Source: Adineta ricciae (taxonomy: Eukaryota > Rotifera > Eurotatoria > Adinetida > Adinetidae). From it: a stretch of DNA of 64,000 nt. Each line of letters opens with the position of its first letter. Position 1 is the stretch's first letter. Below are positions 3,658 to 7,700 of the stretch, piece by piece. A program made the position numbers and the translations under genes. The DNA is taken from assembly GCA_905250025.1 (NCBI GenBank), contig CAJNOJ010000003.1, positions 62,001 to 126,000 of the forward strand, read 5' to 3'. Below the pieces are notes generated by a model that ran no database searches, had not been told where the DNA came from, and worked only from the letters and a program-made list of their open reading frames with translations.

Positions 3658-7700
<4,043 letters not shown>

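Follow-up and report, generated by a model that had tools for sequence, protein, structure and literature searches.

The catalytic loop of a gene predicted to encode a SIK3-type kinase in the bdelloid rotifer Adineta ricciae is, in our reading, encoded in part by a constitutive coding microexon of 7 nt, which would be spliced by intron definition and would predate the bdelloid duplication. We put the probability of this reading at roughly 0.88. The gene lies in the window, the 64,000-nt stretch of genomic DNA that was analysed, and coordinates without a prefix are positions in that stretch. The copy in the window is on contig C3, and further copies are on contigs C8 and C77 of the same assembly. 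The gene in the window and the parts that make up its catalytic loop are arranged as follows.

3658..7700, forward strand: predicted SIK3-type kinase gene, 17 coding exons, 953 amino acids, joined exons open
4326..4423, forward strand: exon 4, 98 nt, ending in HSKNI (last codon ATT) in phase 0, equal in length in the C8 and C77 copies
4424..4482, forward strand: intron A, 59 nt, GTATGT...TTTTTAG
4483..4489, forward strand: exon 5, the 7-nt microexon GTACATC, encoding V, H and the first base of the R of HRD
4490..4546, forward strand: intron B, 57 nt, GTAAGA...GTGTAG
4547..4603, forward strand: exon 6, 57 nt, starting GTGATTTAAAAGCT, i.e. the remainder of the R codon followed by DLKAEN

When exons 4, 5 and 6 are joined they read HSKNI-V-H-R-DLKAEN, with intron A at the I|V junction in phase 0 and intron B inside the arginine codon of HRD in phase 1. 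Exon 5 falls within the 15 nt that bound an ultra-short microexon and has its own GT-AG intron on each side. An earlier note on this DNA had described GTACATC as an exon of its own, flanked by GT-AG introns of 59 and 57 nt; the note's coordinates and counts proved exact. The same note had assembled the whole gene from 17 exons without a frameshift, and this assembly also held, as the introns of the window copy are GT-AG in 16 of 16 cases and the joined exons form 2862 nt in frame, with 953 codons and a single terminal stop.

The identity of the gene was assessed from its translated protein. The Pfam Pkinase domain is matched with an E value of 1.6e-76, and the top PDB match is SIK3 (8r4o, E 5.8e-105), the two best sequences being SIK3 chains, followed by MARK chains. 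These matches provide the AMPK-related kinase domain with catalytic residues that is expected of a SIK, and the expected UBA domain lies 3′ of it, where UBA_SIK3 (PF23312) is matched at residues 356-393 with 35 bits against a cut-off of 27. The tail contains LRRHTIGRP and one further 11-residue segment, candidate PKA/14-3-3 sites which may match those of SIK kinases. A prediction that the gene encodes a SIK3-type kinase is supported, and the label SIK, which the earlier note had attached to it, is borne out by the PDB match and by the UBA domain scoring above the Pfam cut-off. The alignments to these two SIK3 chains run gap-free across the HRD loop, so the microexon restores residues that relatives have at this place.

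A protein and DNA search of the assembly (130.5 Mb, 1033 contigs) recovered at least two further copies of the gene, on contigs C8 and C77, and each has an exon 5 of the same length.

L039:1714-1720, copy on contig C8: 7-nt exon 5, GTTCATC
L040:1791-1797, copy on contig C77: 7-nt exon 5, GTTCATC

The counterpart that the earlier note had proposed to look for in other bdelloid SIK genes is thus present in other copies of the gene within this same genome. Joined by hand, the C8 and C77 copies each consist of 17 exons and 2625 nt and contain no frameshift. Exons 2-10 and 13, including the 7-nt exon 5, are equal in length across the three copies. The length differences in the remaining exons (1, 11, 12 and 14-17) are all multiples of 3, and each of the 16 introns therefore has the same phase in every copy. 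The microexon, which is needed both for the frame and for a conserved motif, has been kept in all three of the copies found. Between the window copy and the other two it differs at one of its seven bases, the third position of the valine codon (GTA/GTT), and the rest of the arginine codon on the far side of intron B also differs synonymously (CGT/CGA). Intron A is longer in C8 (76 nt) and C77 (75 nt) than in the window copy (59 nt); so is intron B, at 57 nt in the window copy and 62 nt, with in-frame stops, in both C8 and C77. Over the three copies the introns around the microexon therefore range from 57 to 76 nt.

Distances between the copies speak to the age of this arrangement. With our own script (Nei-Gojobori with Jukes-Cantor correction), which is imprecise at dS above 1, we obtained for C3 and C8 a dS of 1.59 when the full coding sequence was used and 1.36 for the kinase domain alone (dN/dS 0.16 and 0.056), for C3 and C77 a dS of 1.75 and 1.34 (dN/dS 0.14 and 0.054), and for C8 and C77 a dS of 0.135. 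The gene is evidently under purifying selection on these estimates. For Adineta ricciae, the published mean Ks is 0.135 between homologs and 1.267 between ohnologs, the latter about twice the value given for the other three species, and bdelloid tetraploidy is placed in the same source as probably having arisen before the bdelloid families diverged (PMC5916493). The C8 and C77 copies are very probably a homolog pair, with the window copy as their ohnolog. Because dS between C3 and C8 is close to the published ohnolog mean, and because intron A of C3 aligns with that of C8 no better than shuffled sequence does (181 of 200 shuffles equal or exceed its score), an origin of the microexon before bdelloid tetraploidy, and its retention by selection since, are very probable. 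Conservation across species would follow from the published age of the duplication, the copies compared here coming from one genome and from one duplication. Both the pattern of divergence and the sizes of the introns are in keeping with a bdelloid, very probably A. ricciae or a close relative. A search for a bdelloid spliced-leader sequence gave 0 matches, which speaks against this assignment rather than for it, although the sequence used may contain errors. TGTGGG, the bdelloid telomere unit, does occur as repeats, but the reversed control is the same repeat and matches equally often, so this carries little weight.

Recent gene conversion was considered as the source of the common exon and is unlikely. 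It should have left exons 4 and 6 more alike than their neighbours, yet their identities (75/98 and 46/57) do not exceed those of exons 2, 3 and 7-10 (78-84%), and intron A is no more alike than shuffles.

Three further features distinguish the copies. The window's version turned up just once in DNA searches, a query of exons 4-6 matching the window locus alone in the assembly, whereas its ohnolog is present twice (C8 and C77); a second homolog of the window copy may have been lost, or may have been collapsed in the assembly. Intron 12 is 56 nt long in the window copy (6488-6543) as compared to 411 nt in C8 (L039 3503-3913) and 410 nt in C77, a large change in length that followed the duplication. 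Finally, exon 12 of the window copy contains a run of ten Asp codons (6016-6045), and no equally long run is found in the C8 and C77 translations.

The model by which splice sites were ranked was built from this gene alone, with 32 sites taken from C3 and C8 and a site's own intron position left out. Counted from the weakest of the 32, the donor of intron A ranks 19 in C3 and 13 in C8 and that of intron B 28 and 23, while the acceptors rank 20 and 25 for intron A and 18 and 17 for intron B. The splice sites of the microexon are of ordinary strength and are not weak. Once intron A has been removed, the new junction again offers a GT, the first two bases of the microexon, and as a donor this GT scores 2.69 in C3, -1.43 in C8 and -0.16 in C77, as compared to a median of 5.99; in the window copy the score exceeds the 0.10 of the gene's weakest real donor. 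Re-splicing from the regenerated GT, with loss of the exon, should be uncommon rather than impossible.

Introns of this shortness are normally recognised by intron definition, so the tiny size of the exon is less puzzling than an argument from exon definition implies. The earlier note had advanced such an argument, and its premise stands, as 7 nt is far below the limit; the puzzle drawn from it is diminished, since the introns on either side are of the short kind. In agreement with this, most bdelloid introns are given as 30-100 bp in length (PMC5916493), and C. elegans microexons, such as that of tcer-1, whose neighbouring introns are short (as little as 49 nt) are described as independent of PRP-40, with intron definition argued (PMC8378409). 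We infer constitutive inclusion of the microexon from genome sequence, and the intron-definition mechanism from intron length. Introns A and B, 7 nt apart within the catalytic loop, would each be recognised across their own 57-76 nt. Once either had been removed, the seven bases would be fused to an exon of normal size, and the other intron could then be spliced ordinarily. As each intron would be paired across itself and removed singly, the limit on exon size would not apply, and a special regulator would be unnecessary. The microexon may have been created, before the bdelloid duplication, by two intron insertions into a once-continuous exon of 162 nt (98 + 7 + 57).

Introns in related kinases were also compared. 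At three loci of the same genome which we take to be MARK-like (L041, L042 and L043), an intron interrupts the coding sequence after HRDLK in all three, at neither of the SIK intron positions; it would lie 11 bases further downstream than SIK intron B. An intron position common to the SIK and MARK-like genes was therefore not found at these loci, and because the MARK-like break lies elsewhere it gives no clue to which of the two SIK introns is older. The catalytic loop appears to carry introns at different places in related kinases.

The earlier note had also suggested that the microexon could be a regulated switch for kinase activity. Under such a scheme inclusion of the exon would be controlled, skipped transcripts with their early stop would be degraded by nonsense-mediated decay, and the balance would set the level of active SIK. 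The length of exon 5 is not a multiple of 3, and skipping it leads to a stop after two codons in all three copies, so the exon is obligatory and regulation could act only as an on/off gate, via decay. An early stop upon skipping is, however, commonplace for any exon whose length is not a multiple of 3, and the splice sites around the microexon are not weak, as described above. Intron B is more similar between C3 and C8 than most shuffles, only 2 of 200 reaching its score, but this similarity is matched by introns 1, 9, 10 and 14 (2, 7, 3 and 6 of 200 shuffles, respectively), intron 12 also passes (0 of 200) despite its greatly different lengths, and the similarity of intron A does not go beyond that of shuffles. 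TGC is the motif of SRRM3/4, and none lies within 34 nt of the acceptor in any of the six introns (A and B of the three copies). The nearest starts 35 nt from the acceptor in intron B of C8 and C77, and intron A has no TGC in C3 or C8 and a sole one in C77, starting 45 nt from the acceptor end. With ordinary sites, no near TGC, an unconserved intron A and, as set out below, retention of intron B not shared by C8 and C77, the suggestion of a switch found no support here, and we consider it improbable. A longer shot still is a gate by which cold or drying, in altering splicing, would shut the SIK output of all three copies via decay; it would act on the copies together because each of them, on skipping, meets an early stop right at its catalytic loop.

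Retention of intron B in some transcripts of the window copy would have a different consequence, namely a protein of full length into which 19 residues are inserted between the R and the D of HRD, presumably an inactive kinase. The 57 nt of intron B in this copy are a multiple of 3 and are free of stops in frame, as such a product would require. Against it, the corresponding introns of C8 and C77 are closed by their in-frame stops, and the donor of the window copy, GTAAGA, is among the stronger ones at rank 28 of 32. In the window copy 2 of 16 introns are open and a multiple of 3 in length, namely intron 9 and intron 5, the latter being intron B, as compared to 0 of 16 in each of C8 and C77, so that the openness of intron B looks accidental. 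Intron retention of this kind is very improbable, and a conserved in-frame retention was rejected, the openness not being common to C8 and C77. Intron 9 of the window copy (5317-5370; 54 nt, stop-free) is the only other intron of this type there.

Other ways of supplying the residues, by an alternative donor or acceptor or by a single intron, have next to no probability. The enumeration ran from the start of exon 4 to the end of exon 6 and took in GT-AG chains that have one intron or two, each no shorter than 30 nt. With one intron, no chain yields an open frame containing HRD (0/80 in the window copy, 0/116 in C8 and 0/120 in C77). HRDLKAEN in an open frame is given by 3 of 524 two-intron chains in the window copy, 4 of 579 in C8 and 3 of 739 in C77, and every one of these contains the same 7-nt exon, the chains differing only in how exon 4 is trimmed. 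Among the three chains of the window copy, a single one keeps the full residue count. A relaxed set (GC donors, introns of at least 25 nt), run for the window copy only, contained five open HRDLKAEN chains among 105 + 950, and not one of the five dispenses with this 7-nt exon. No support for another donor or acceptor, or for a one-intron supply of the residues, was found among the one- and two-intron chains of the three copies. That exon 5 is obligatory for the frame and for HRD, as the earlier note had claimed, is supported both by the early stop upon skipping and by its presence in all HRDLKAEN chains tried.

Chance was likewise rejected as the origin of the pattern. In dinucleotide-preserving shuffles of the interval, a microexon of the form AG|V-H-(R)|GT arose in 1 of 20,000 for the window copy and in 0 of 20,000 for each of C8 and C77, and when both introns had to be at least 40 nt the count was 0 of 20,000 in each copy. 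Decay of the gene, with the seven bases left over as a functionless remnant, is barely conceivable, for although the window's version was found in one copy rather than two, each of the three copies has 17 open exons and the kinase-domain dN/dS of 0.056 between C3 and C8 contradicts decay.

Ultra-short coding microexons are a kind already known, and the preferred reading, a constitutive microexon spliced by intron definition, has parallels in several systems. Plant microexons include one of 9 nt in invertase, where it encodes D-P-N/D-G/A of the beta-fructosidase motif, and in AP2 genes, and one of 1 nt in APC11 (PMC8831610). The exon described here resembles them (PMC8831610) as a tiny coding exon in a conserved motif, of a sort often missed by annotation, in duplicated genes; unlike them, it belongs to an animal kinase gene, is 7 nt long and is known from genome sequence alone. 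The microexons of Chlamydomonas reinhardtii, some of which lie in Pkinase domains (PMC8831610), are alike in encoding part of that domain, but C. reinhardtii is a green alga. In splicing there is a likeness to the tcer-1 type of C. elegans, a microexon between short introns, with a minimum of 49 nt there as compared to 57-76 nt here; splicing was measured in that work (PMC8378409), whereas here intron length points to the mechanism. Neural microexons that depend on SRRM3/4 are described as switch-like in neurons (PMC12626424). The SIK3 exon shares with these its shortness and its place in an animal signalling gene, but it is not a multiple of 3 in length, its loss truncates the protein, and TGC is not near its acceptor. 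A 3-nt microexon has been reported in an animal (PMC7392893). In a literature search that took in a minority of subscription journals, no report of microexons in bdelloids or in SIK genes was found among the papers listed, nor, by title, any paper on rotifer microexons or on a microexon in a kinase catalytic loop. The case of a SIK3-type kinase appears to be new, with unusually good comparative support.

The case is a clear and checkable one: a minute exon that an animal kinase needs for its catalytic core has persisted through an ancient genome duplication, with synonymous sites between the copies now close to saturation. With an exon far below the exon-definition limit between short introns, the gene offers a natural test of intron definition, and the comparison of ohnologs inside one genome provides a route to such exons that does not depend on reads. 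Gene finders for which an exon of 7 nt is too small may lose or garble HRD, so that the kinase would look dead, and for this reason apparent pseudokinases and frameshifts in bdelloids deserve a check for microexons.
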